NCBI GenBank assembly: GCA_015067435.1
Contig: SVMM01000021.1
Span: forward strand, 1 to 52,533
DNA from: Oscillospiraceae bacterium
GTDB taxonomy: Bacteria > Bacillota > Clostridia > Oscillospirales > Oscillospiraceae
DNA length: 52,533 nucleotides
Direction of reading: 5' to 3'
The translations under genes were made by a program, and so were the position numbers. Below, piece after piece: positions 5,613-52,396 of the stretch. The notes beneath the pieces are model-generated. The model made no database searches and was not told where the DNA came from. It was given only the letters and a program-made list of their open reading frames with translations. Positions within the stretch are counted from its first letter, which is position 1. Every line of letters begins with the position of its first letter.

Positions 5613-7281
5613 ATTCAAAGCTGATGATGTAGTAGTATACAGGCTGACCGCCGGAGAGGACGCTGACCTCCGCGTTCGGCAGCTTTTCGGAGAAGCAGCC
5701 GGAGTCGACCTCCGCCTCGGCGGCGTCCACGTCCTCGCCGTAGAAAACGTTGATGAACTCCGCGCCGCGCTCAGCGGCGGCGTCGGCGAGCTTGCCGAGC
5801 AGCACCGAAATGCTCTTGTCCACGCCGAAGAGCTTCCCGTCGAGCAGCGCGAGGAAGTCGCCCTCATGGATGTCGTTCCCGTCGAAGTCGGAGTCGCGCG
5901 CGGCATAGGTGATCTGCGCGGTGGTGACGTTCTTCGCCGCGTCGAGCATCGCGCTCTCGATCGCCTTGGCGTCGCCCTGCTCCAGATCCACCGCCATCAT
6001 CGCGGAGATGCCCTGCGGCACGGTGGACGTGGGGATGACGATGACATTCTTTTCGGTCAGCCCTTCGCACTGCTGCGCAGCCATGACGATGTTCTTGTTG
6101 TTCGGCAGCACGAAGACCGTCTCGGCGGGCGTGCGCTCGATCTCGGTGAGTATGCTCTCGGTGGAGGGGTTCATGGTCTGGCCGCCGCTGATGACGCCGT
6201 CCACGCCCATGTCGCGGAACACGGAGGCAAGCCCGTCGCCCGCGCAGACGGCAAGGAAGCCGTAGGGCTTGATCTCCTCCGGCTCGACGGGCGCGGCGGG
6301 CGTCTCCATATCGTCGTCCTCCAGCTCGTCGGCGGAGATGGTCTTGCGGCCCGCCGCCATGTCCTCCTGCTGGATGCGCATGTTCTCGATCTTCGCGACC
6401 TCCAGCGTGCCGTACTGCTGCGCGGCGTTGAGCGCGTCGCCCGGCGTGTCGGTGTGGACGTGGACCTTGAACATATCGTCGCCCTCGCTGACGACGATGC
6501 TGTCGCCGATGGAGTTCAGATACTCACGGAACGGCGCGAGGTCGCACTGCTTCGTCTTGCGCACGATGAACACCGTGTCGAAGGTGAAGGTGATGTCCTC
6601 GTCGCCCAGCTCGGCGAAGTCCGCCTTGTCGCGCGTCTCCTGCGCGCCGTCCAGCTCCGGCATCGGCTCGCCGCGCAGACTGGAGAGCATGCCCTCCAGA
6701 ATGATGAGGAAGCCCTTGCCGCCCGCGTCCACGACGCCGGCGCGCTTGAGCACGGGGTTCATGTTGACGGTTTCCTTGAGCGTTTCGCCGCCCTGGCGGA
6801 TCGCCGCCTCAAGCACCTGCTCGACGTCGCCGCCCTCGCCGGCGGCGCGCATCGCCGCGTCGGCGGCGAGGCGGGAGACGGTCAGGATCGTACCCTCGGC
6901 GGGCTTCATGACCGCGCTGTACGCCGCAGCGACGCCCTCCTGCATGGCGCTGGCAAAGGCGACGCCGTCGGCGGCGTCCACGCCCTTGAGGCTTTTGGAG
7001 ATGCCGCGGAACAGAAGCGACAGGATCACGCCCGAGTTGCCGCGCGCGCCGCGCAGCATCGCGTTCGCCGCGACGTTCGCGACCTCGTCGACGGTGCGGA
7101 AGTCCTTCTTGTTCAGCTCCGTCGCCGCCGTCTGGATGGTCAGGCTCATATTGGTGCCCGTGTCGCCGTCCGGCACGGGAAAAACGTTCAGATCGTTGAT
7201 GCTTTGCTTTGCCGCGCTCACGGAGACGGCGCCAAACAGCAGCATCTCCTTGAAAACGGCACCGTTGATGGTTTCGTGCAT
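5611..7281 (-). CDS. fakA: Fatty acid kinase FakA / YloV (DhaL-DegV-type)
   Basis: 556 residues, close to YloV/FakA (about 550). The N-terminal DhaL (dihydroxyacetone-kinase-like) domain has the Mg-ATP motif PVPDGDTGTNM (36-45) and GARGNSG; a central and C-terminal DegV-related region follows. FakA phosphorylates fatty acids bound to FakB (DegV) proteins, feeding exogenous fatty acids into phospholipid synthesis. A DegV protein is encoded at 40686-41537. Start ATG 7281 is chosen for AGGAGGG 10 bases upstream and the typical MHETINGAVFKEML start. It lies 14 bases after the Asp23-like gene, an arrangement conserved in Bacillota (yloU-yloV). Confidence 0.9.
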   Translation of the reverse strand: MHETINGAVFKEMLLFGAVSVSAAKQSINDLNVFPVPDGDTGTNMSLTIQTAATELNKKDFRTVDEVANVAANAMLRGARGNSGVILSLLFRGISKSLKGVDAADGVAFASAMQEGVAAAYSAVMKPAEGTILTVSRLAADAAMRAAGEGGDVEQVLEAAIRQGGETLKETVNMNPVLKRAGVVDAGGKGFLIILEGMLSSLRGEPMPELDGAQETRDKADFAELGDEDITFTFDTVFIVRKTKQCDLAPFREYLNSIGDSIVVSEGDDMFKVHVHTDTPGDALNAAQQYGTLEVAKIENMRIQQEDMAAGRKTISADELEDDDMETPAAPVEPEEIKPYGFLAVCAGDGLASVFRDMGVDGVISGGQTMNPSTESILTEIERTPAETVFVLPNNKNIVMAAQQCEGLTEKNVIVIPTSTVPQGISAMMAVDLEQGDAKAIESAMLDAAKNVTTAQITYAARDSDFDGNDIHEGDFLALLDGKLFGVDKSISVLLGKLADAAAERGAEFINVFYGEDVDAAEAEVDSGCFSEKLPNAEVSVLSGGQPVYYYIISFE

Positions 7282-7295
7282 GGAAAACGGCCCTC

Positions 7296-7646
7296 CTAGA
7301 TCGTGATGCTGTCGACGCACACGTCGACGCTGCGGATGCGGGCGCCCGTGTTTTTGTTGACGAGATAGCGCACCTGCGAGATGATCTCACGCGAGATTGC
7401 GGTCATGTTGACCCCGGACTCGACAATGATATGCAGCTCGATGGAGATGTCGCCCTCGTCGTGCTGGATGATGTGTACGCCCTTGCTCATGGCGGAGGGA
7501 CGCAGCAGATGGACGATGCCGTCCGTCATGGAGCGGTAGGCCATGCCCTTGACGCCGTAGCAGCTCGTCGCCGCCGCGCCGGTGATGTTCGAGAGCACCG
7601 CGTCGCTGATCTGGATCTCGCCGTGGTCGGTTTGCAGCTTAAACAT
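7296..7646 (-). CDS. Asp23/Gls24 family envelope stress protein, YloU-like
   Basis: 116 residues, complete for the family; contains ITGAAATSCYGVKGMA near the start and the conserved beta-alpha segment SIELHIIVESG. Asp23/YloU proteins are small membrane-associated or cytosolic proteins linked to envelope stress; molecular function is open. SD aaggaga precedes ATG 7646. Immediately upstream of fakA in the same operon, under the promoter at 7696-7724. Confidence 0.88.
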   Translation of the reverse strand: MFKLQTDHGEIQISDAVLSNITGAAATSCYGVKGMAYRSMTDGIVHLLRPSAMSKGVHIIQHDEGDISIELHIIVESGVNMTAISREIISQVRYLVNKNTGARIRSVDVCVDSITI

Positions 7647-7695
7647 AAAAGGTCTCCTTTCCGAAAGCCCTTTTAAGGCAGTTTAGAACTTTGAT

Positions 7696-7724
7696 ATTAT
7701 ATACGAAGCAATTGAGAATAACAA
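7696..7724 (-). promoter_or_regulatory. Sigma-A promoter of the Asp23-like/fakA operon
   Basis: Minus strand TTGTTA (7719-7724), 17-bp spacer, perfect TATAAT (7696-7701). Confidence 0.8.
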
Positions 7725-7750
7725 TAGTTATTTTGCGCGAAAACTGCCTA

Positions 7751-7779
7751 TTGCAAAACAAAAAAGTTTACCGTAAGAT
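7751..7779 (+). promoter_or_regulatory. Sigma-A promoter of rsmD-coaD
   Basis: TTGCAA (7751-7756), 17-bp spacer, TAAGAT (7774-7779), about 44 bases before rsmD. Divergent from the promoter at 7696-7724. Confidence 0.55.
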
Positions 7780-7822
7780 AAAAGGGAGCCTGTGCGGCAA
7801 CGAAATTCGGGGGGTGCGTGTC

Positions 7823-8386
7823 ATGCGAGTGATTACCGGCTCGGCGCGGGGAAGGCGTCTGGGCGAGCTGAAGGGACAGGAGACGCGCCCCACCGCCGGA
7901 AAGGTCAAGGAGGGCGTGTTCAGCGCGCTGCAATTCGAGCTGGAGGGCCGGCGCGCGCTGGATCTCTTTGCCGGAACGGGGCAGATGGGCATCGAGGCGC
8001 TCTCCCGCGGCGCGAAGTCCTGCGTCTTCATTGACCGGCGCGCCGACGCCGCGCGGCTCGTGCAGGACAACCTTGCCGTCTGCGGGTTTTCGGACCGGGG
8101 TCAGGTTCTCTGCACGGACGCGATGACCTATCTCACGTCGCTGCGCGGCGCGAAGTTCGACCTGATCTTCCTCGACCCGCCCTACGCCGACGACGTGCTG
8201 GAGCGCGCCATCGCGCACATCGCGCGGTTTGACATTTTGGCGGAGCATGGTATAATCGTGGCGGAGTGCCCCGTGGACAAGACGCTGCCCGCCCTGTCCG
8301 CGCCGTACCGCATCCACCGCGAGTATCGCTACGGCAAGATCAAGGTGACGGTCTACCGCCGCGACGGAGAGGAGACGGACGCATGA
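7823..8386 (+). CDS. rsmD: 16S rRNA (guanine966-N2)-methyltransferase RsmD
   Basis: 187 residues, the family size. N-terminal MRVITGSARGRRL, the TRPT motif, SAM-binding LDLFAGTGQMGIEA (47-60) and the catalytic FLDPPY (116-121) are all present. It methylates G966 of 16S rRNA during small-subunit assembly. Start ATG 7823 follows a G-rich ribosome site. The stop overlaps the start of coaD (ATGA), the usual rsmD-coaD pairing. Confidence 0.95.
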   Translation: MRVITGSARGRRLGELKGQETRPTAGKVKEGVFSALQFELEGRRALDLFAGTGQMGIEALSRGAKSCVFIDRRADAARLVQDNLAVCGFSDRGQVLCTDAMTYLTSLRGAKFDLIFLDPPYADDVLERAIAHIARFDILAEHGIIVAECPVDKTLPALSAPYRIHREYRYGKIKVTVYRRDGEETDA

Positions 8387-8856
8387 GGATCGCAGTCTTC
8401 CCCGGCAGCTTCGACCCGGTCACGCTGGGACACATGGACGTCATTACCCGCGCTGCGGCGATGTTCGACCGGGTGTACATCTGCACGATGGTCAACGCGG
8501 GCAAGAGCCCGATGTTCACCACTGAGCAGCGCTTTGAGATGCTGCGCGCCGCGGTGGCGGAGCTCGACGGCGTGACGGCCGAGCTGTGGACGGGGCTGCT
8601 GGCGGACTACGCGCGCGAGCGCGGCGCGCGCTGGCTGGTCAAGGGCGTGCGCAGCGGCACCGACTTCGACGCGGAGTACGGCATGGCGCAGATCAACCGC
8701 TCGCTCGACGCGCAGCTCGACACCGTGCTGATCCCCTCGCGTCCGGAGCTGCTGCACATCAGCTCGTCCATGGTGCGCGAGATGATCCGATACAAAAGGC
8801 CGCTGGAGCCCTGTATGCCCCGGGCGGCGATAGAAGTGATGAAAGGATGGGGTTGA
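8383..8856 (+). CDS. coaD: Pantetheine-phosphate adenylyltransferase CoaD
   Basis: 157 residues. Nucleotidyltransferase motif PGSFDPVTLGH (7-17) and C-terminal ISSSMVRE (126-133) identify CoaD, which adenylates 4'-phosphopantetheine to dephospho-CoA. SD ggagagg lies ahead of ATG 8383, inside rsmD; start and stop overlap by four bases. The downstream coiled-coil gene starts 2 bases after its stop. Confidence 0.96.
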   Translation: MRIAVFPGSFDPVTLGHMDVITRAAAMFDRVYICTMVNAGKSPMFTTEQRFEMLRAAVAELDGVTAELWTGLLADYARERGARWLVKGVRSGTDFDAEYGMAQINRSLDAQLDTVLIPSRPELLHISSSMVREMIRYKRPLEPCMPRAAIEVMKGWG

Positions 8857-8858
8857 CG

Positions 8859-9395
8859 ATGGCAAACCGGGATGTGGAGAACCTCATTGATATGCTCTAC
8901 GACATGGTCAACGACGCGAAGAACATGCCCCTGAGCAGCGACAAGTGCGTCATCGACCGCGACGCCGCGCTTGACCTGCTCGACGAGATCCGCGCGGGGC
9001 TTCCGGCGGAGCTCAAGCGCGCGCAGGATCTGATCCAGGCGAAGGAGGACTACGTCAACTCCGCCAAGCGCGAGGTCGGCCGCATGATGCAGAAGGCGGA
9101 GAACGACGCCAAGAGCCGCGTGTCCGACAGCGAGGTGGTCGCCGCCGCGCGTGAGCGCGGGCACGAGATCATCCAGCGCGCGGAGGACCGCTCCAACGAG
9201 ATGTACCGCGTGGTCAACGAGTACACGGAGGACGCGCTGCGCCGCACGGAGGAGGCAATCCAGGCGGCGCTGGAAGAGGTGAAGCAGAGCCGCGTGCGCT
9301 TCCGCGCAGCCTCCGCCGCCAGACGGCAGAAGGATCGGGAGGAACTGAGCCGCTCTGCCAGAAAACCGGACAAGGAAACCGAAGAAAATTCGTGA
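8859..9395 (+). CDS. Coiled-coil protein downstream of coaD, ATP-synthase-B/H-subunit-like
   Basis: 178 residues, almost all helical and strongly charged, with heptad-like patterns from about residue 45 to 150 (ELKRAQDLIQAKEDYV, EEAIQAALEEVKQS). No catalytic motif and no membrane segment. Similar to the poorly characterised 'V-ATPase subunit H-like' coiled-coil proteins that follow coaD in many Clostridia; position suggests a link to envelope or division, but function is unknown. SD aaaggatgggg precedes ATG 8859. Confidence 0.75.
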   Translation: MANRDVENLIDMLYDMVNDAKNMPLSSDKCVIDRDAALDLLDEIRAGLPAELKRAQDLIQAKEDYVNSAKREVGRMMQKAENDAKSRVSDSEVVAAARERGHEIIQRAEDRSNEMYRVVNEYTEDALRRTEEAIQAALEEVKQSRVRFRAASAARRQKDREELSRSARKPDKETEENS

Positions 9396-9445
9396 TATTG
9401 CACAATGGATGTGCAGCGGAACAAGATTTAGAGACGTTTTTGCCG

Positions 9446-9482
9446 CCCTGCTACAAAATATTGTAGCAGGGTGCTTTTTTGT
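9446..9482 (+). terminator. Terminator of the rsmD-coaD operon
   Basis: An 11-bp perfect stem (9446-9456 with 9461-9471), loop aata, then a T-run at 9475-9482. Confidence 0.9.
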
Positions 9483-9549
9483 TTTTTAAAACCGAAACGG
9501 GCGTTTCACTTCGTCATCATTTCGACAAAAAACACGCAAGGATTTCTAC

Positions 9550-9578
9550 TTGCTTTTTATGTGAACCTCTCGTATACT
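9550..9578 (+). promoter_or_regulatory. Sigma-A promoter of the mraZ (dcw) operon
   Basis: TTGCTT (9550-9555), 17-bp spacer, TATACT (9573-9578), directly before the MraZ boxes. The gene-free stretch 9396-9767 holds the terminator above, this promoter, the boxes, and a 5' leader of roughly 180 bases with a weak GTTCC/GGAAC hairpin; nothing else is evident. Confidence 0.7.
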
Positions 9579-9589
9579 CAGAGGCAGAG

Positions 9590-9625
9590 GTGGGGGGAAG
9601 TGGTGAAAAGTGTTTTGACGTGGAG
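9590..9625 (+). promoter_or_regulatory. MraZ-box operator, four GTG repeats at 10-bp spacing
   Basis: GTGGGG (9590), GTGGTG (9600), GTGTTT (9610, degenerate) and GTGGAG (9620) recur exactly every 10 bp just downstream of the -10 element. Tandem TGGGN/GTGGNG repeats with one-helical-turn spacing are the known binding sites of MraZ, so autoregulation of the dcw operon is likely. Confidence 0.75.
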
Positions 9626-9767
9626 CCACATTCCCACAAAGTGAGCGCTGCGTGCAGCGGCGCTTGCCGAATGCAGTGAGAGTGGAGCCGTGCCTGTTCC
9701 TTCGAAAAAAGGGGGAACGGGAGGCTTTGCCCTCGTTCGCCGCATTTTTGAGGGGAGGTGAGCAACC

Positions 9768-10196
9768 GTGACCGGACAGTATCAACACAACATCGACGCG
9801 AAGGGGCGGCTGTTCATCCCCGCGAAGCTGCGCGAGGAGCTCGGCGGCACCTTCTATGTCACGGTGAGCACCGACGCCAAGCATACCGCCTTCCTCGCGG
9901 CGTACTCCGCGGAGGCGTGGGCGCGCCTGACGGAGAAGTTTGAAAGCCTGCCCTCCATCCAGACCAGACAGATGGTCGCCATCTTTGCCAACGCCGCCAA
10001 GTGCGAGCCGGACGCGCAGGGACGCATCCTGCTGCCGCGCGAGCTGCGCGATTATGCGGGCCTCGACAAGGAGGCCGTGGTCATCGGCGTGTCCAACCGC
10101 GCCGAGATCTGGAGCGCGGAGAAGTGGGCGAAGGAGGAGAGCGAGGCGCTCAACCCCGAGAACCTCGCCGCCGCCATGGCGGAGCTCGGTTTCTGA
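9768..10196 (+). CDS. mraZ: Transcriptional regulator MraZ
   Basis: 142 residues, two SpoVT-AbrB-like repeats: GQYQHNIDAKGRLFIPAK at the start and EPDAQGRILLPREL in the second half. MraZ is a ring-forming DNA-binding repressor of the division and cell-wall operon. Start is GTG 9768, preceded by ggggaggtg. First gene of the dcw operon; rsmH starts 1 base after its stop. Operator repeats are seen at 9590-9625. Confidence 0.95.
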   Translation: MTGQYQHNIDAKGRLFIPAKLREELGGTFYVTVSTDAKHTAFLAAYSAEAWARLTEKFESLPSIQTRQMVAIFANAAKCEPDAQGRILLPRELRDYAGLDKEAVVIGVSNRAEIWSAEKWAKEESEALNPENLAAAMAELGF

Positions 10197-39687: not shown

Positions 39688-40644
39688 ATGCCGCAAGAGG
39701 AACGTAAGCTCATCCGACCGCAGGTGCTGCTGCTGGGCAACGGCGTCAACCGCGCCTTCGGCGGCGGCTCGTGGGGCCAGCTGATCCGGGACATCTCCTG
39801 CAACCCCGACGTGCCGGAGGACGCGCGGCTGCATCTGCCCATGCCCCTGCGGGCGATCCTCGTCACCGGGGACTGCGTGGGCGTACAGCTGCGCTCCGCG
39901 GGGGAGATCCTGTACGGCAAGCTGGGCGATCCTGGCCACATCGAGATGCTGCAAAGGCTGCTCGACCTGAATTTCGACCACATCCTGACGACCAACTTCA
40001 GCTACGAGCTGGAGCAGGCGGCGCAGCCGGATACGCCGCTCAGCGAGCAGCGGCTTCAGGACATGATGCACCACAGCGACGGGCGGCGGCAGGCGGAGGC
40101 GAAGTACCTGTTCTACACCTACAGCGCGGTGGACTGGCGCGGCAGGGCGAACAGGGTCTGGCACATCCACGGCGAGGGCCGCAAGCCGGACAGCATGATC
40201 CTGGGGCACTATTACTACGCGAATCTGCTGGAGAAGATCTCGTCCTACGTCAAGTCGGAGGGCGCGCGCTGGCACCACGAGCAGTCCCGCGGCGAGCCGG
40301 TGCGCATCAAGAGCTGGGCGGACGCTTTCCTGTTCGGGGATCTGTACGTGCTGGGCTTTGGCTTCGACGTGTCGGAGTTCGACCTCTGGTGGCTGCTCAA
40401 CCGCAAGAAGCGGGAGCGGGCGGACACGGGCAGGACGTGGTTCTTCGCGCCGGCGGAGCGGCTGGAGCCGGGGCAGATCAACGAGAAGGAGGAGCTGCTG
40501 CGCGTGCTGGGCGTCGAGGTGCGCCACTGCGGCTCGATCCGCGCGGACGGCACTCCGCTGGAGCGCAGCCTCGGCTTCCGCGCGTTTTACGATCTGGCAA
40601 TCGAGGAGATCCGCGCGCTGGTGGCGGAGCACCGCGGCGAATAG
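39688..40644 (+). CDS. Stand-alone SIR2-like domain protein
   Basis: 318 residues. Shows the Rossmann-type SIR2-like features: LLGNGVNRAFGGGSW (15-29) for nucleotide binding, TTNFSYELE (101-109, the TTN motif), WHIHGE (158-163, the HG motif with likely catalytic His161) and VLGFGFDVSEFD (221-232). Such SIR2-like proteins include NAD-consuming effectors in phage defence (ThsA, DSR2 and AbiH-like groups), but many are uncharacterised. It has no extra sensor domain. ATG 39688 is preferred because ggtggag precedes it by 5 bases. Followed by a very strong hairpin terminator. Confidence 0.78.
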   Translation: MPQEERKLIRPQVLLLGNGVNRAFGGGSWGQLIRDISCNPDVPEDARLHLPMPLRAILVTGDCVGVQLRSAGEILYGKLGDPGHIEMLQRLLDLNFDHILTTNFSYELEQAAQPDTPLSEQRLQDMMHHSDGRRQAEAKYLFYTYSAVDWRGRANRVWHIHGEGRKPDSMILGHYYYANLLEKISSYVKSEGARWHHEQSRGEPVRIKSWADAFLFGDLYVLGFGFDVSEFDLWWLLNRKKRERADTGRTWFFAPAERLEPGQINEKEELLRVLGVEVRHCGSIRADGTPLERSLGFRAFYDLAIEEIRALVAEHRGE

Positions 40645-46755: not shown

Positions 46756-47448
46756 ATGTGGGACAGAAGGGAACTCAAGGCAAGGGGCAAGGCGGCGTTT
46801 CAGGCGAACTACTGGAAGTGCGTGATCGTCGCGCTGATCCTGGGGATACTCGTCGGCGGCGGCGCGGCGGCGGGCAAGGACAAGGCGGAGGACGCCGCCG
46901 AAGCCAACGGCACGACGATCGTGGAGACGATCAAGCAGACGCCCAAGGCGGTGCTCGCCGTGTTCGCGGGCGTACTCGTCGGCGTGCTGGCGGCGGGCAG
47001 CGCGATCAAGCTGCTTGTGTTCAACCCGCTGCGCGTCGGCTGCAAGCGTTTCTTCCTCGTCAACAGCGACGCGCCCGCGGAGCTGGACGAGCTGCTCTGC
47101 GGCTTCCGGAACGGCTACGGGCGCGTGGTCGCGGGAATGCTCCTGCGTGACATGTACATCGCGCTGTGGAGCCTGCTGTTCGTCATTCCCGGCATCGTCA
47201 AGGCGTACTCCTACCGCATGGTGCCGTACATCCTCGCCGAAGACCCGAGCGTCGGCGGCAAGGAGGCGATCGCCATCTCAAAGCAGATGATGCACGGGCA
47301 CAAGTGGAACGCCTTTATGCTCGACCTCAGCTTTTTCGGCTGGTATTTCCTCGCCGCGATCACCGCCGACGTGATCGGCGTGCTGTGGACGGGACCGTAT
47401 ACCGAGGCGACGGACGCGGAGCTGTACAAGACGATCCGCGCCCTGTAA
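46756..47448 (+). CDS. DUF975-family membrane protein
   Basis: 230 residues. Typical start MWDRRELKARGKAAFQANYWKC, four or so hydrophobic segments (23-40, 66-90, 132-155, 190-215) and the conserved YSYRMVPYILAEDP motif. Function of the family is unknown. SD aaaggaag precedes ATG 46756. Follows the GGDEF gene by 36 bases. Confidence 0.88.
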   Translation: MWDRRELKARGKAAFQANYWKCVIVALILGILVGGGAAAGKDKAEDAAEANGTTIVETIKQTPKAVLAVFAGVLVGVLAAGSAIKLLVFNPLRVGCKRFFLVNSDAPAELDELLCGFRNGYGRVVAGMLLRDMYIALWSLLFVIPGIVKAYSYRMVPYILAEDPSVGGKEAIAISKQMMHGHKWNAFMLDLSFFGWYFLAAITADVIGVLWTGPYTEATDAELYKTIRAL

Positions 47449-47593: not shown

Positions 47594-47857
47594 ATGGCAG
47601 AGAACAAACCGCCCGTCACGCCCACCGACGCGCATTGGGACGCCGTGGAAGCCCTGCTTCCGCTTCTGGGCAGGGAGAAGGAATGGGAGGTCTCCCGCGA
47701 CCGGCATCATCAGCGCTGCCTCTGGGATCGTGAGGAGGATGCTCCGTTCCTTTGGGAGGAGGCGCTTTGCGCCCTGCGCGGCGCGCTCGAAAAGCCGCTT
47801 GCGGAATACGATCTGCCTGCGGAACAGCTTACGCTTTTGGAGGAGCTGCTGGGCTGA
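47594..47857 (+). CDS. Small acidic hypothetical protein
   Basis: 87 residues, acidic and helical, Trp-rich (DAHWDAVEALLPLL, LWDREEDAPFLWEEAL). No family recognised. SD aaaggag lies 9 bases before ATG 47594. A hairpin follows, and the CbrC-like operon converges on it from the other strand. Possibly a small cofactor of that locus, but this is only position-based. Confidence 0.6.
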   Translation: MAENKPPVTPTDAHWDAVEALLPLLGREKEWEVSRDRHHQRCLWDREEDAPFLWEEALCALRGALEKPLAEYDLPAEQLTLLEELLG

Positions 47858-47876
47858 CGCCGCGAAAACCGGACAG

Positions 47877-47920
47877 AAAAATCGGACGCTCCATGATATC
47901 ACGGAGCGCCCGATTTTTTA
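47877..47920. terminator. Bidirectional terminator
   Basis: An inverted repeat (47877-47892 with 47903-47919, one internal mismatch) flanked by A5 and T6 lies between the small protein gene and the CbrC-like gene, overlapping the end of the latter. Confidence 0.8.
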
Positions 47921-49036
47921 TGCTTCCTCGTCCGGCTCGTCCGGCACGATGCGCACGCCCTTTTTCTTCAGCTGGCGCACGTAATCGTAGCGCTCGCCGT
48001 GCACGATCTCGCCCGTCGGATCGATCTCGATCGTGTAATAGCCGCGGTCGCCGCACATCTCGGTGATGACGGCGGAACCGTCCTCCGCTTTTTTTACATG
48101 GAACCACGTCTCCGTGAAGGAATCGCCGCAGCGCTCGCCGATCCCGCGGACAAACTCGCTCAGGCGCATGGTCAGGGCATCGGTCAGGCGCTCGTAAAAG
48201 ATGCAGAACACACCTTTGCACGCCACGCAGCGGAAGAGGTGTGCTGTGAGCTTTCCCACCGCAAAATCGGCGAACACCGCGTCGGGGCCGCGATCCCGGA
48301 AGCAGTTGAACTTGTTGTCCCAGGTCTCGGTCAGGGCGGCGCGCAGAGCATCCGTCAGGTCCTCCGGCTCCAATTGACCGAGATAGGCACCGAATTTGCC
48401 GCAGTGCATTCCCCACAGCGGCGCGACGCGCCCCTGATCGAAGTACGGCGGTGTGTCGCCGCCGACCGAGCACCAGTCGAACTCGTCCTCGACCCTGCTG
48501 TCGAGATCGGGAAACAGCGTGTTGCCGCTCCGGACGGGGTACATATCCTGAATACACCAGGGGCAGACGGTCTCCGGCCCCCGCTCGGTCTCGCCGCGGT
48601 AGTTGACGCGGTGCGTGTTGTCGCAGTAGTCGCATTGCGCTTCGCCGATGTCGAACGTCCCGTCCAGCACGGGAAAGGGATGGAGGGGGAAGTCGTAGCC
48701 GCGGAGCTTGCGCGCCTCTTCCAGCAGCGCGTCGATGTCGGCGCGCTCGACTCTCGCCAGATACTCCCGCTCCGCGTCGACCTCATAGATCAGTACGCGG
48801 TCGATTTCGGGGATGCGGGCGCGGACCTCGGGGTGGATCGCGTCGCAGATGAGGATCTGGTGCGGGTTGCGCACGAGCAGGGCGTCCTCGCCGCCGCCAC
48901 AGAGCAGCACGGCGTCGTGCGCCGAACCCTTGAAGTAGCCGGGGACGGCGATCATGACCTGTCCCGCGTCATTGATCGCGGTTTGGTAGTCGCACAGCGG
49001 CTCCATTTCCTCGGCGCGCAGCTTGTCCAGATTCAT
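47918..49036 (-). CDS. CbrC (UPF0167)-like zinc-ribbon protein
   Basis: 372 residues. A zinc-ribbon-like pair CDYC (135-138) and CPWC (158-161, VCPWCIQDM) with the following acidic/aromatic stretch matches the CbrC/UPF0167 family, whose E. coli member gives colicin E2 tolerance. An extra N-terminal domain (1-115) and a C-terminal domain (about 225-372, with RCVACKGVFCIFYERL) are not recognised. Start ATG 49036 follows gggagg. It ends a three-gene minus-strand unit with the two AAA-related genes (13-base gap upstream). Confidence 0.72.
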   Translation of the reverse strand: MNLDKLRAEEMEPLCDYQTAINDAGQVMIAVPGYFKGSAHDAVLLCGGGEDALLVRNPHQILICDAIHPEVRARIPEIDRVLIYEVDAEREYLARVERADIDALLEEARKLRGYDFPLHPFPVLDGTFDIGEAQCDYCDNTHRVNYRGETERGPETVCPWCIQDMYPVRSGNTLFPDLDSRVEDEFDWCSVGGDTPPYFDQGRVAPLWGMHCGKFGAYLGQLEPEDLTDALRAALTETWDNKFNCFRDRGPDAVFADFAVGKLTAHLFRCVACKGVFCIFYERLTDALTMRLSEFVRGIGERCGDSFTETWFHVKKAEDGSAVITEMCGDRGYYTIEIDPTGEIVHGERYDYVRQLKKKGVRIVPDEPDEEA

Positions 49037-49049
49037 TCTGCCTCCCCCT

Positions 49050-49871
49050 TCAGAGCGCATATTTGCCGCAAAGCGCGGCAAACACCATGTCGTCGATCAG
49101 GACGTCCACCGAGTGGAAGCCCCAGAAGCCGCCGCTTCCGCGCAGCTTTTCCAGCGCGCGGCGCAGCGCCTCGCGCGTCTCCTCGTCCGACTCCAGTCCG
49201 CGCGATTCCATCCGGCGCAGCGCGTAGGCGTGGTAGTCGTCGATCGCATAGGGCGGGGTATAGACGACGTCGACGTTGAAGAACCAGCCGATCGCCTCGC
49301 GCAGACGCCGCAGCGTCAGCTCGTCCACCGCCGGAACGCGGAACACGACGAGCTGCTCCTCCGTCGTATCGCGCAGGCGGCTGAGCGCCGCGCGGAAGTC
49401 GCTGCGCTCCACGCGGTCGATCCACTTCGTGATGTCGAGGCACAGCACGCGCCTGCAGGGCACGTATGTCAGCCCGTCCTCCGCGAGGTTGGAAAGTACG
49501 ATGTCGCGGTCGCTGAGCTTTTCCATGCTCTTTGCGTCCATGCGGTCGGGCAGACGCAGCTCCTTGTACGCCACCGGCATCTGCCTGATCCCCAGGATGC
49601 CCTCCCAGAGCCTGGCAAGCAGCCGCATCTGGGTGTGCAGTCCGTCCCCGTCGTTGATGGAAAGCAGCACGGCGCGCTCAAAGACGAACATCTCCCCGCC
49701 GCCGCTCATGTGCGTGGCGACCTCCATCGTATCGCAAAGATAGCGCTTGAACTCCTTCGCGCCGATCAGATCGAGCGCGGCGCGCGTCGCCTCGCTGACC
49801 GGATCGGGAAAGCTGTCTGCCGCAATATGCGCAAGCACGTCCCTGCTGATGGGAAGCGTGGTATTCTCCAT
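49050..49871 (-). CDS. Degenerate AAA-domain protein, paralogue of the neighbouring ATPase's middle domain
   Basis: 273 residues. Residues about 31-265 align by eye with residues 200-426 of the ATPase encoded next upstream: RAVLLSINDGDGLHT takes the place of its GALCFAIGGGNGFTT (former Walker A), RVLCLDITKWIDRVE that of IIAVDMGFRVER (former Walker B), and GGFWGFHSVDVLIDD that of EHFYGFRSIRALVSD. No P-loop lysine remains, so it should not hydrolyse ATP and may be an adaptor. Start ATG 49871 follows gaggtg; gaps of 10 and 13 bases to its neighbours show one operon. Confidence 0.72.
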   Translation of the reverse strand: MENTTLPISRDVLAHIAADSFPDPVSEATRAALDLIGAKEFKRYLCDTMEVATHMSGGGEMFVFERAVLLSINDGDGLHTQMRLLARLWEGILGIRQMPVAYKELRLPDRMDAKSMEKLSDRDIVLSNLAEDGLTYVPCRRVLCLDITKWIDRVERSDFRAALSRLRDTTEEQLVVFRVPAVDELTLRRLREAIGWFFNVDVVYTPPYAIDDYHAYALRRMESRGLESDEETREALRRALEKLRGSGGFWGFHSVDVLIDDMVFAALCGKYAL

Positions 49872-49881
49872 CGTCGCCACC

Positions 49882-52116
49882 TCACACAAAGCCGATGGCG
49901 CGCGCCGACTTCTCGCGCAGCATCTGAAACTCCTCCGCCTCCGCCGCGTTGCGGAAATCCGCGGCGGTCAGCTCGATCGACGCGCCGGAGACAATGCGCT
50001 CGCCGGTCTCCGCCTGATGGCGCAGCGCGGCCTTGGAGACCGTGCGCTCGTAGAGATTGCGCACGAAGCGGGCGTTGGCGAACGCTTTGTTGTTCAGCGT
50101 TTTCTCCGAAAGCGAAAGGAAGTACGCCTCCGCCTCCCGTTCCAGCCCCGCGGCGCAGCGGTACTTTTTGCCCGCCATGCGCATGTAGATCTTTGCCAGC
50201 TCCTCGCGTGTGAAATTGCGGAACCTGATCTCGTGCGGAATGCGGCTGGCAAGGCCGGGGTTCGCTTCGAGCAGGAGCTTCATCTCGTCGCCGTAGCCGG
50301 AGAGAATGACGATGAAATCCTGCCGGTGGTTTTCCATCTGCGTGATGAGCGTATCCAGCGCTTCGCGCCCGAAGTCCTTGCCGTCATCCGAGGAGCGGTA
50401 GAGCGTGTACGCCTCGTCGATGAATAGAATGGAGCCGTAGGCGTCGCGGCAGAGCGCGTTGGTGATCGGCGCGGTCTCGCCGATGTAGCGCCCCACGAGA
50501 TCGCGCCCCGTGCGCTCATAGAACTGTCCCTTGGAGAGGACGCCCTTTTCTTTCAAAATCCTGCCCAGAATGCGCGCCACGGTAGTCTTGCCCGTGCCGG
50601 GGTTGCCCGTGAAGAGCATATGCATGCAGGGCCGTTCGGCGGAGGGCTGCTCTTTCGCCAGCTCCAGCTGGACGACGATCTCGTCGATGCGGCTTTTGAC
50701 CTCGTCCACGCCGATCAGCTCATCGAGCTGTTCCGAGCCGCCGTGCTCGTCTTCCCATTGATTCAGCGCGCGGCGCACGTCCTCCTTTGTGATGACCAGC
50801 GACATTTCCGTTCCCTCCCTCGCTTCGATGAGATTTTTCTGATAAATGACGTCTGAGACCAGCGCGCGGATCGAACGAAAACCGTAGAAATGCTCGCGGT
50901 TGCGCTTTTCCACGATCAGCTTTTCCAATCCTTCCACGGCGTCCGGCTCGACCCTGCCGCCGAGACGTGCGGCCATACCCGCTGCCGCAGCGGCGTAATC
51001 CGCGGTCGAGAGCGGCGGGACCGCGATGGTGAAGAGCGGGAACACAGCGCCGAGCTCCGCGACGATCTTCTCCTTTTCCGCCCCTTCCGAATAGGGGATC
51101 TTGAAGACCGGAAGCAGCCCGCCGCGCTCTCTTGCAAGCCTTCGCAGGAACGAGCGCAGCTCCGCCGTGCCCGCCCGCTCGACACGAAAGCCCATGTCGA
51201 CGGCAATGATGTCGCTGTTTTCCGAAAGGCGCTCGAATTCCTCGACGACCTCCTTGTCGCTGTCTGCCTTTTTGATCTCCGGCACCTTGGGGCGGTGTTC
51301 GATCGTTTTGACCTTGAGCGCCGTCAAAAGCTCGGAGAGCAGCGAGACATAGGTGGTAAAGCCGTTGCCGCCGCCGATGGCGAAGCAGAGCGCACCGTTC
51401 TTGCAATAATCGCGAAGATACGTCGCGTCCTCCGACTCTGAGACCGTCCGGAGCCAGCGGCAGTACGCCTTGAACTCCTCCGCGCCGGCAAGGCGCTCGA
51501 CGCGTTCCATGATCTCTCTGACCTCGCAGGCGCGCGCCGTGTCGCCCAGTGCGCTGAGAAAAAGGCTGCGGCGCAGATCCTCGCCCGTCGTGCCGGGGAC
51601 GGTTTCCTCCTCGTCCTCTTCGTCGTCCTCATCGACAAAACAGCTTTCGTACAGCTCGCCCACCGCGCAGAGGAACAGCTCGGCAAAGTCTTCGCAGCCG
51701 TCATCCTCCATCGGGATCAGCGTCAGCTCGTCGAGGGCGTGGTACATCCCTGTTTTGGAGGAGTAAACATAGATTTCGTCGTCGAAGCTGCCGACGACGA
51801 GGCAGCCGTTCAGACCGGATTTCATGCGGAGATAGTAATCGTTTTTGTCAAAGAGCGACGGGTTGGTGTAGCGATTGCCCATCGGCGTCGGCTTTGTGCT
51901 GAAAAAGCACACGCCGTTCCAGGCATAGCCGTCGGTCAGCCTCAAAAAGGCTGCGTAGTCCTTCGGGATCTGCGGTACATCGATCCCGTCGACGCCAAGA
52001 CGCGCGATCATCTGCATGCCCGCCGCCTCGATCTCCGCGTCCGTCGCGCCGTGGTGCTCGCTTTCGCAGAAGAAGGTTTTCTCCAGCAGCTCCAGCATCC
52101 TCTTTTCGTTCGACAT
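49882..52116 (-). CDS. SUKH - degenerate AAA - CbxX/CfqX-type AAA+ ATPase
   Basis: 744 residues. N-terminal SMI1/KNR4 (SUKH) domain (about 25-150: VPQIPKDYAAFLRLTDGYAWNG), an acidic linker (161-172), a degenerate AAA-like domain (about 195-430, P-loop position reads GGGNGFTT without lysine) and an active CbxX/CfqX AAA+ domain with Walker A GNPGTGKT (504-511, Lys510), Walker B SILFIDEAY (Asp567, Glu568), sensor region VILSGYGDEM and arginine finger in GLASRIP (Arg625). CbxX-type ATPases remodel protein complexes (RuBisCO activase, SpoVK, EccA). SUKH domains often act as toxin-immunity or adaptor folds. Start ATG 52116 follows aaggag. Confidence 0.85.
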   Translation of the reverse strand: MSNEKRMLELLEKTFFCESEHHGATDAEIEAAGMQMIARLGVDGIDVPQIPKDYAAFLRLTDGYAWNGVCFFSTKPTPMGNRYTNPSLFDKNDYYLRMKSGLNGCLVVGSFDDEIYVYSSKTGMYHALDELTLIPMEDDGCEDFAELFLCAVGELYESCFVDEDDEEDEEETVPGTTGEDLRRSLFLSALGDTARACEVREIMERVERLAGAEEFKAYCRWLRTVSESEDATYLRDYCKNGALCFAIGGGNGFTTYVSLLSELLTALKVKTIEHRPKVPEIKKADSDKEVVEEFERLSENSDIIAVDMGFRVERAGTAELRSFLRRLARERGGLLPVFKIPYSEGAEKEKIVAELGAVFPLFTIAVPPLSTADYAAAAAGMAARLGGRVEPDAVEGLEKLIVEKRNREHFYGFRSIRALVSDVIYQKNLIEAREGTEMSLVITKEDVRRALNQWEDEHGGSEQLDELIGVDEVKSRIDEIVVQLELAKEQPSAERPCMHMLFTGNPGTGKTTVARILGRILKEKGVLSKGQFYERTGRDLVGRYIGETAPITNALCRDAYGSILFIDEAYTLYRSSDDGKDFGREALDTLITQMENHRQDFIVILSGYGDEMKLLLEANPGLASRIPHEIRFRNFTREELAKIYMRMAGKKYRCAAGLEREAEAYFLSLSEKTLNNKAFANARFVRNLYERTVSKAALRHQAETGERIVSGASIELTAADFRNAAEAEEFQMLREKSARAIGFV

Positions 52117-52152: not shown

Positions 52153-52181
52153 ATAATGCAATTATAAGCAATATCCGTCAA
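52153..52181 (-). promoter_or_regulatory. Sigma-A promoter of the SUKH-AAA operon
   Basis: Minus strand TTGACG (52176-52181), 17-bp spacer, CATTAT (52153-52158), 37 bases before the gene. The rest of 52182-52396 shows no gene. Confidence 0.55.
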
Positions 52182-52396
52182 ATTGTATATACTAATTCCG
52201 CAAGCCAACGCTCCATGTGCTCATTGATTTGAAACTTTTGCGGAAAACAGTCGATTTTGTAACGGTTATGAACGCACCGTGCTGTAAAATAATCAAAATA
52301 TGATCTGCACAGAGCTTTGCGAAGCGACCGGCGTCATGTCGACCGCGTTCTGCTGTCCCGGCGGAAGTACAGAGAAAATACAAGGGGGAAGCCTTT

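Follow-up and report, generated by a model that had tools for sequence, protein, structure and literature searches.

A SpoVK/CbbX-type AAA ATPase, a free-standing dead AAA homologue and a divergent UPF0167 protein form a conserved gene cluster and candidate remodelling module in some rumen bacteria

Dead AAA domains usually lie within a live protein, where their role is hard to separate out. The locus described here raises the question of what such a domain does when it is encoded twice, once within an ATPase and once as a free-standing protein by the following gene. It is located on contig SVMM01000021.1 of an Oscillospiraceae bacterium (assembly GCA_015067435.1); this contig is 52,533 bases long, comes from a genome of 3.34 Mb that is 96% complete, and is referred to in its entirety as the window. 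The original prediction, made from the letters alone, placed three tightly spaced minus-strand genes near one end of it, and this was confirmed: the genes, here named A, B and C, are open reading frames (ORFs) in operon-like order, with 10 bases between A and B and 13 bases between B and C. Tentatively, and with somewhat less than even confidence, we read the cluster as encoding a dedicated chaperone that remodels proteins, a member of the SpoVK/CbbX/EccA clade with a dead-tier partner, B, belonging to stress or conflict islands.

Gene A displays a live AAA domain, D2, at its C terminus. Pfam matches it by PF00004 (62.5 bits) and by the lid family PF17866 (38.2 bits) within residues 462–721, the lid match ending 23 residues before the end of the 744-residue protein. 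The domain has the motifs GNPGTGKT and FIDEAY, a sensor-1 GY, a sensor-2 arginine and a pore-loop-like segment, VGRYIGETAP. The best NCBIfam match is SpoVK (TIGR02881, 239.2 bits), followed by CbbX (TIGR02880, 210.8 bits) and EccA (TIGR03922, 187.9 bits); all three scores fall below the curated cut-offs (equivalog cut-offs of 422.95 and 459.25 bits for the first two, 466.65 bits for EccA), and an identity with SpoVK, CbbX or EccA proper was rejected on these grounds. In a profile comparison with solved structures CbbX is the closest relative (243.6 bits) and EccA1 the second (176.9 bits). A Foldseek search with the model of A returned 3syl (E 6e-19) and then the tandem AAA proteins p97, Cdc48, Rix7 and Drg1, aligned over about 600 columns with TM-scores of about 0.3. 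PADLOC gave weak general ATPase matches only, the best at 31 bits.

Thirty A sequences were in hand, nine of the triad type (including a second copy in the window's own genome) and 21 "solo" ones, and the motif counts given here refer to the 26 that were aligned, those of loci L025, L064, L100 and L101 being left out. In D2 all 26 keep both catalytic Walker residues, the lysine of motif A and the glutamate of motif B. The sensor-1 GY signature of the SpoVK/CbbX/EccA clade is present, with Tyr608 in A and a tyrosine in 25 of the 26 rows. Asn619, which precedes the arginine finger, is found in 25 rows, as is an arginine six positions further on, while an arginine at +4 occurs in only 10 and is replaced by alanine in A. 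Arg683, assigned by reading the alignment as the second arginine finger or sensor-2 residue, is invariant (26/26). The CbbX segment QYIGHTAPKT aligns with RYIGETAPIT of A, and its aromatic residue, which we take to be the pore-loop residue, is Tyr or Phe in 25 rows. D2 is thus a CbbX-type motor of the SpoVK/CbbX/EccA clade.

The preceding domain, D1, has neither the lysine of Walker A nor the glutamate of Walker B in any of the 26 rows. Its assignment as an AAA domain comes from the D1 profile of solo A proteins, which matches D2 (hhalign 95.8%, E 7.8e-9), from the predicted order of strands and helices, which is AAA-like in the AlphaFold model (predicted local distance difference test, pLDDT, mostly 66–89), and from the Foldseek matches to tandem AAA proteins. 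Aligned directly with D2, the D1 profile of triad-type A proteins gave 15% (E 0.0017) and that of B a weak 0.9% (E 0.06). B is related to D1 itself far more closely: its profile matches the D1 of solo A proteins at 100% (E 2.9e-39) and that of triad-type A proteins at 99.8% (E 5.8e-28), which bears out the earlier view of B as a free copy of the dead AAA domain. Both Walker residues are likewise absent in all nine B rows compared.

B has no match at E≤1 in Pfam, NCBIfam or PADLOC, and neither the B nor the C profile has one at E≤1 among solved structures. Searches of 50,697 phage records and 72,556 plasmid records did not find B, and a pattern scan of viral contigs gave 16 stretches that fit the pattern, none of them a relative; nothing in the collections searched accordingly points to B being carried by phages or plasmids. 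A weak link that was set aside concerns proteins resembling B that stand directly beside VirD4/TraG-type coupling ATPases, of the kind used in conjugation, in four loci (L105 8711–11093, L106 7149–9667, L107 3–2776 and L059 8263–10641). The coupling ATPase of L105 matches PF02534 with 131 bits, while the other three were labelled by eye. The B-like proteins of L106 and L107 contain a P-loop-like GSGKS/GTGKS, and L106 has TIR-like neighbours, again labelled by eye.

Whether the three genes occur together in other genomes was a check proposed with the original prediction. A scan of genome contigs with A returned ten loci, and in all seven relatives with at least 51% identity (L022–L028) B and then C follow directly downstream, although in L022 and L025 the contig stops within C; L023 and L024 have two C genes each. 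Two A homologues at 42% identity (L029, L030) have neither B nor C; L031 is a short AAA match and was not counted, and L029 and L060 are one locus, counted once. Including the window there are eight triad loci, three in Oscillospiraceae (window, L022, L026) and five in Lachnospiraceae (L023, L024, L025, L027, L028). They represent five lineages at most, since L025 and L027 look near-identical and the window, L022 and L026 are close to each other. The triad is carried by some rumen bacteria, and its source genomes include no isolate. Within the coding regions, comparison with the close relative L026 indicates purifying selection, with nonsynonymous and synonymous divergence (dN/dS) of.067/.41 for D1,.048/.37 for D2,.091/.37 for B and.113/.44 for C.

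None of the 21 solo-A loci, L029 and L030 among them, has a free B or C in the fetched flanks, whose lengths differ; the downstream side of L053 is cut by a contig end, which leaves 20 of the 21 informative. Of 391 genomes sampled from the class, eight gave a match to the B profile; a strong free B was seen in the window's own genome only, and G573 has a weak B-like gene. Among 299 genomes of the family of triad genome G690 the profile matched 13, the only strong free B being that of G690 itself, and three others carry weak B-like genes beside coupling ATPases; in 79 genomes of the genus of G690 it matched two, both already known (G689, G690). Five other sampled genomes of the window's genus gave no match. 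Two homologues of A of about 1,100 residues (L061 9275–12592 and L062 5076–8399) also match an FtsH-like protein with two AAA domains in L023 (E 2e-67 and 4e-67). A 675-residue AAA protein of the isolate Eubacterium eligens ATCC 27750, 41% identical to D2, was rejected as a solo A because it has no D1 match and no adjoining B or C.

Contig C35 of the window's genome carries another A-B pair, with an A-like protein of 591 residues and a B-like protein of 267 residues. In a tree of 32 D1 and B rows, from which A of L058 and L063, the four B-like rows from beside coupling ATPases and B of L025 were left out, B is monophyletic (100/100), as is the D1 of triad-type A proteins (100/99). The two parts broadly mirror each other, and the C35 copy groups with the window, L022 and L026 in both (99/89 for D1, 90/67 for B). 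The simplest reading of the tree is that A and B were duplicated together as a pair, and such a co-duplication would be the best evidence that the two proteins work together. About 2 kb upstream of the second pair (L019 12875–13969) lies a gene for a protein with a macrodomain-like N terminus, as judged by eye.

The third protein, C, is zinc-ribbon-like and matches UPF0167 (PF03691) over residues 115–275 with 54.4 bits against a gathering cut-off of 25, and has extra parts on both sides of this domain. It had been called CbrC-like; the family stands, while the CbrC equivalog NF040891 is matched with only 30.8 bits against a cut-off of 300 and an identity with CbrC proper was rejected. Among 300 genomes sampled from the family, ordinary UPF0167 proteins were found in 15 besides the window's own and score 197–223 bits, while C and a paralogue on contig C20 of the same genome score 56 bits, which sets C apart as a separate subfamily. 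Eight residues are invariant in nine C-type proteins, namely C135, C138, C158, C161, H211, C212, C270 and C273, which form three CxxC motifs and an H211-C212 pair and are possible metal ligands. The C-terminal extension resembles free small proteins of L027 and L092 (hhalign 93.8%, E 1.7e-7); searched singly against the small protein of L027, that of the window gave E 0.013 and that of the C20 paralogue E 0.0012. PADLOC has no match for C. The C20 paralogue (L020 8625–14741) has as neighbours the genes of a response regulator, of two solute-binding proteins and of a sensor kinase, the last named by similarity to a gene of L023, where the same four genes come after the triad.

The N terminus of A is the part that changes most. 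The original prediction had A as a fusion of SUKH, dead AAA and live CbxX-type AAA domains; the two AAA domains were recovered, while the SUKH domain is borderline, with 55.3 bits against a cut-off of 55 (NF038335), no SUKH match in Pfam and a pLDDT mostly below 50 over residues 3–178. Free SUKH homologues score higher (71.2 and 79.9 bits in L092 and L093). SUKH is encoded just before A by a separate gene in L022 and L023 and by a divergent gene upstream in L028, and, at a greater distance than in these, is found in L092, L093 and L094 and about 10–12 kb from A in the triad loci L024 and L027; it was not found in 18.6 kb of L026 and is missing from the C35 pair. In the window it occupies the place of another N-terminal domain that is present in L022, L023, L024, L026 and L027. 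From the acidic linker onwards the A proteins of the window and L026 resemble each other, so that the window's A looks like an in-frame SUKH fusion as far as the sequences go; alternatively, the joint between SUKH and A may be an assembly error. SUKH also diverges more than D1, D2, B or C (dN.38, dS.99, measured against a possibly paralogous copy in L022). Dedicated chaperones with variable, exchangeable N-terminal recruiting domains are described for the SpoVK clade (PMC10659427). The A homologue of L028 (2105–4786, 893 residues) has a different N-terminal region of 360 residues; a resemblance of this region to M20 dipeptidases, noticed by eye, was dropped as Pfam finds nothing there.

In Lachnospiraceae the triad has a recognizable setting. 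In L024, L023 with L092, and L027 with L094, it lies downstream of genes for the membrane protein M624, for VWA and phosphatase-like proteins, for a protein kinase and for an M48 peptidase, together with a TerB-like gene. In L024 the VWA (44.2 bits, cut-off 27), kinase (70.9, 31.7) and M48 (98.8, 20.3) matches are above cut-off, and L023 has a TerD (144.8, 25.3). Genome G691 carries the VWA, phosphatase and kinase genes on a contig other than that of L025, its triad locus, so that these TerY-P-like genes occur in four of the five Lachnospiraceae triad genomes. TIR proteins are found in L092 (two, 41.7 and 40.7 bits) and L094 (one, 40.0 bits), against a cut-off of 28. The kinase of L024 matches mad6 of the MADS system in PADLOC (68.2 bits) and NCBIfam MAD6 far below its cut-off (56.2 of 460 bits), while PADLOC has no match for the VWA protein and the phosphatase of this locus. 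Across all eight triad genomes a TerY-P-type kinase was found in four (G689, G690, G691, G693) and TerD was not found in that of the window, which makes the Ter setting a companion of the triad and not a part of it. A reading of M624 as a two-helix, Rossmann-like, RyR-like protein was set aside, Pfam giving nothing above cut-off. Just upstream of SUKH-A-B-C in L023 is a protein of 1,023 residues that combines an M41 peptidase with a pair of AAA domains (6825–9896). At L057 (5590–17634) a solo A is found near an M624-like protein, a CARF/Card1 nuclease (PF09002, 27.4 bits, cut-off 26.4), a tubulin-like protein (PF13809, 173.6 bits) and, by eye, ClpP-like and VWA-like genes.

Which of these features have been met before? 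Stacked AAA domains are shared with Pex1/Pex6 and p97/Cdc48, all of which appear in the fold-match list of A. In Pex1/Pex6 the first AAA tier is inactive and has a scaffolding role, and we know of no free-standing dead domain in either Pex1/Pex6 or p97/Cdc48. The layout of A is already in print, as the CoCoNuT section of PMC11090510 describes tandem SpoVK-family ATPases with Walker motifs only in the C-terminal AAA domain, near TerY-like VWA proteins in Type III-A CoCoNuT extensions; A has the same arrangement, and shares the VWA company in some Lachnospiraceae only. The CARF nuclease near the solo A of L057, a single locus, agrees with this literature. The CoCoNuT ATPases carry in addition a C-terminal leucine-rich repeat and a beta-barrel and belong to CoCoNuT operons, whereas A has neither C-terminal part and adds an N-terminal SUKH domain, and that section mentions neither a free D1 partner nor C. 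A free-standing dead-domain partner, the A-B-C set and a SUKH-SpoVK fusion were not met in the portion of the open-licence PMC literature available to us.

The triad moves together between distant species and is therefore probably one stress or conflict machine. On the mechanism we favour, A would form a ring, presumably hexameric, whose live D2 tier pulls a client through the pore, while the dead D1 tier would hold the ring and an interchangeable N-terminal domain that recruits the client, SUKH in the window. B, as a detached and co-evolved D1, might join or cap the dead tier and tune assembly or client access, and C, with its conserved pattern of potential metal ligands, could be an adaptor or a client of the A-B machine; the whole module would serve stress or conflict responses. 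That the paralogue acts as a mixed-ring or adaptor subunit of a remodelling machine had been proposed from the start, and it is still the natural reading of the co-divergence of A and B, the duplicated pair and the CbbX-type motor, whereas the toxin recognition tied to it is possible but not directly supported. In a more specific version the machine would have split off a second copy of its dead ring domain and kept it as a separate gene, so that the dead tier mixes A-D1 with B and is hence asymmetric; exchangeable recruiters, SUKH and others, would make it a chaperone that can be plugged into stress and conflict islands, with C as a metal-bound adaptor. This version appears rather unlikely as a whole.

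Several findings weigh against the chaperone reading. The triad is rare and patchy. No C was found in the 19.8 kb fetched around the C35 pair, and this pair together with the A homologues devoid of B or C indicates that neither B nor C is needed for the core motor. L028 falls on the Oscillospiraceae side of the tree in D1 (95/87) and on the Lachnospiraceae side in B (95/91), so that the histories of A and B do not fully match. Several Ter labels of L024 are below curated cut-offs (TerB 21.1 of 24.4 bits, TerY_C 21.8 of 28.4, SpoIIE-type phosphatase 20.7 of 25). The kinase was not found in the genomes of the window, L022, L026 and L028, the last being Lachnospiraceae; in the window's genome, where the TerY-P set was looked for by its kinase alone, TerD was not found either, so that for the window a stress setting is borrowed from the other genomes. 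Besides, the model of C is poor (pLDDT 58.7) and gave no fold match at E≤0.001.

Among the alternatives, the original prediction leaned towards toxins: SUKH would capture an incoming toxin, the AAA ring would unfold it and C would confer colicin-like tolerance. SUKH is a common immunity domain that is fused to other immunity domains (PMC3482391, in its available part, where AAA terms have no match in this survey of polymorphic toxins), and here it is fused to or adjoins A in four of the eight triad loci (window, L022, L023, L028), lies about 10–12 kb away in two more, and is the most divergent part of the cluster, with TIR proteins in two Lachnospiraceae islands. Yet no toxin gene was recognized beside the window's triad, where one side is visible and not all neighbours are annotated, other lineages have other N-terminal domains in place of SUKH, and the C35 copy has none. 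The link to colicin E2 was borrowed from CbrC, which is reported as protective (PMC3599342), and C lies too far from the CbrC equivalog to inherit it. Toxin disarming is, in our judgement, unlikely. A role as an activase for a single enzyme of metabolism or of the envelope, which A-B-C would refold or reactivate with no part in conflict, would suit the closest characterized relatives, as CbbX acts on Rubisco and SpoVK on MurG, and some solo A genes lie among genes that look housekeeping by eye. It sits poorly with the patchy distribution and with the Ter, TIR and SUKH neighbours in Lachnospiraceae, and we hold it to be quite unlikely. CbbX, the red-type Rubisco activase, shares with D2 the P-loop, the pore-loop-like segment and Walker B, but has a single AAA domain, and SpoVK, the MurG chaperone, lacks the extra D1 and SUKH; the RuBisCO large subunit (PF00016) was not found in the window's genome at its 96% completeness, which excludes Rubisco alone as the client.

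The VWA-phosphatase-kinase genes suggest another possibility, namely that the A-B ring is the output or target of a TerY-P phosphorylation switch, its state being governed by the kinase and the phosphatase. They adjoin the triad in three Lachnospiraceae genomes and are placed on another contig in G691, but with the kinase not found in half of the triad genomes such a switch is improbable. Finally, a secretion chaperone, also raised in the original prediction, would resemble EccA of type VII secretion, which belongs to the same clade, has extra domains before its AAA domain and, as EccA1, is the second-closest solved relative of D2. The extra domains of EccA are tetratricopeptide repeats (TPRs) and a beta-helix (PMC10659427), whereas those of A are SUKH and a dead AAA domain, with no TPR in Pfam at E≤1. 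As PMC11217815 lists VWA, kinase and phosphatase in new type VII systems, WXG100 proteins (PF06013) were searched for as well and none was found in the 96%-complete genome of the window; a type VII secretion role is highly improbable.

The locus offers the dead AAA domain in a fused and a free version next to each other, and does so in more than one lineage and, in one genome, at two places; solo A homologues add the case of the fused version only. The role of a dead AAA tier thereby becomes directly testable. The triad also gives a context to groups for which the libraries searched give no function, that is B, a small neighbouring ORF of 87 residues, and C with its uncharacterized family. The second A-B pair, the Lachnospiraceae Ter/TerY-P setting and this small ORF had all been overlooked at the outset.

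The features of the locus are collected in Table 1. The contig ends 417 bases upstream of A, which leaves the upstream neighbours of A out of view. For A the ATG at 52116 was chosen as start, the longest ORF beginning with a TTG at 52161. Promoter-like sites number three in the region against 1.0 ± 1.2 in shuffled sequences, a weak excess, and the ATGs of A, B and C are each preceded by a purine-rich, ribosome-binding-like stretch, read directly. The inverted repeat behind C was also read directly from the letters and is not listed by the motif scan. Homologues of the 87-residue ORF, which has no family match in Pfam or NCBIfam, are found near the triad in L023 and L028, in the latter directly after C.

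Table 1. Coordinates of the features of the A-B-C locus in the window
Feature	Coordinates	Strand	Source
Gene A (744 aa), with SUKH-like, dead AAA (D1) and live SpoVK/CbbX-type AAA (D2) domains	49882..52116	-	
Gene B (273 aa), a D1 homologue encoded as a free-standing dead AAA domain	49050..49871	-	
Gene C, 372 aa: divergent UPF0167 protein	47918..49036	-	
SUKH-like domain at the N terminus of A (residues 1-150, approximately; matched by the model over 21-132)	51667..52116	-	
D1, the dead AAA domain of A (residues 189-460, approximately)	50737..51552	-	
Live AAA domain D2 of A with lid, residues 462-744	49885..50733	-	
C-terminal extension of C, residues 276-372	47921..48211	-	
Promoter-like site 5' of A, TATACA-17-TATAAT	52161..52189	-	motif scan
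Inverted repeat with A/T runs on both flanks, terminator-like, between C and the convergent 87-aa ORF	about 47876..47919		
87-aa ORF, convergent with C	47594..47857	+	

Two further genes of the window were noted. A DUF975 membrane protein is encoded at 46756–47448 (+), and a homologue adjoins M624 in L092 (11123–11824), on the same contig as the L023 triad and upstream of it; DUF975 may be common, and its presence near both triads may be chance. A protein of 318 residues (39688–40644, +) has a SIR2-like domain (PF13289, 26.2 bits, cut-off 24.5) and an AbiH match below cut-off, and is possibly a defence-type gene.

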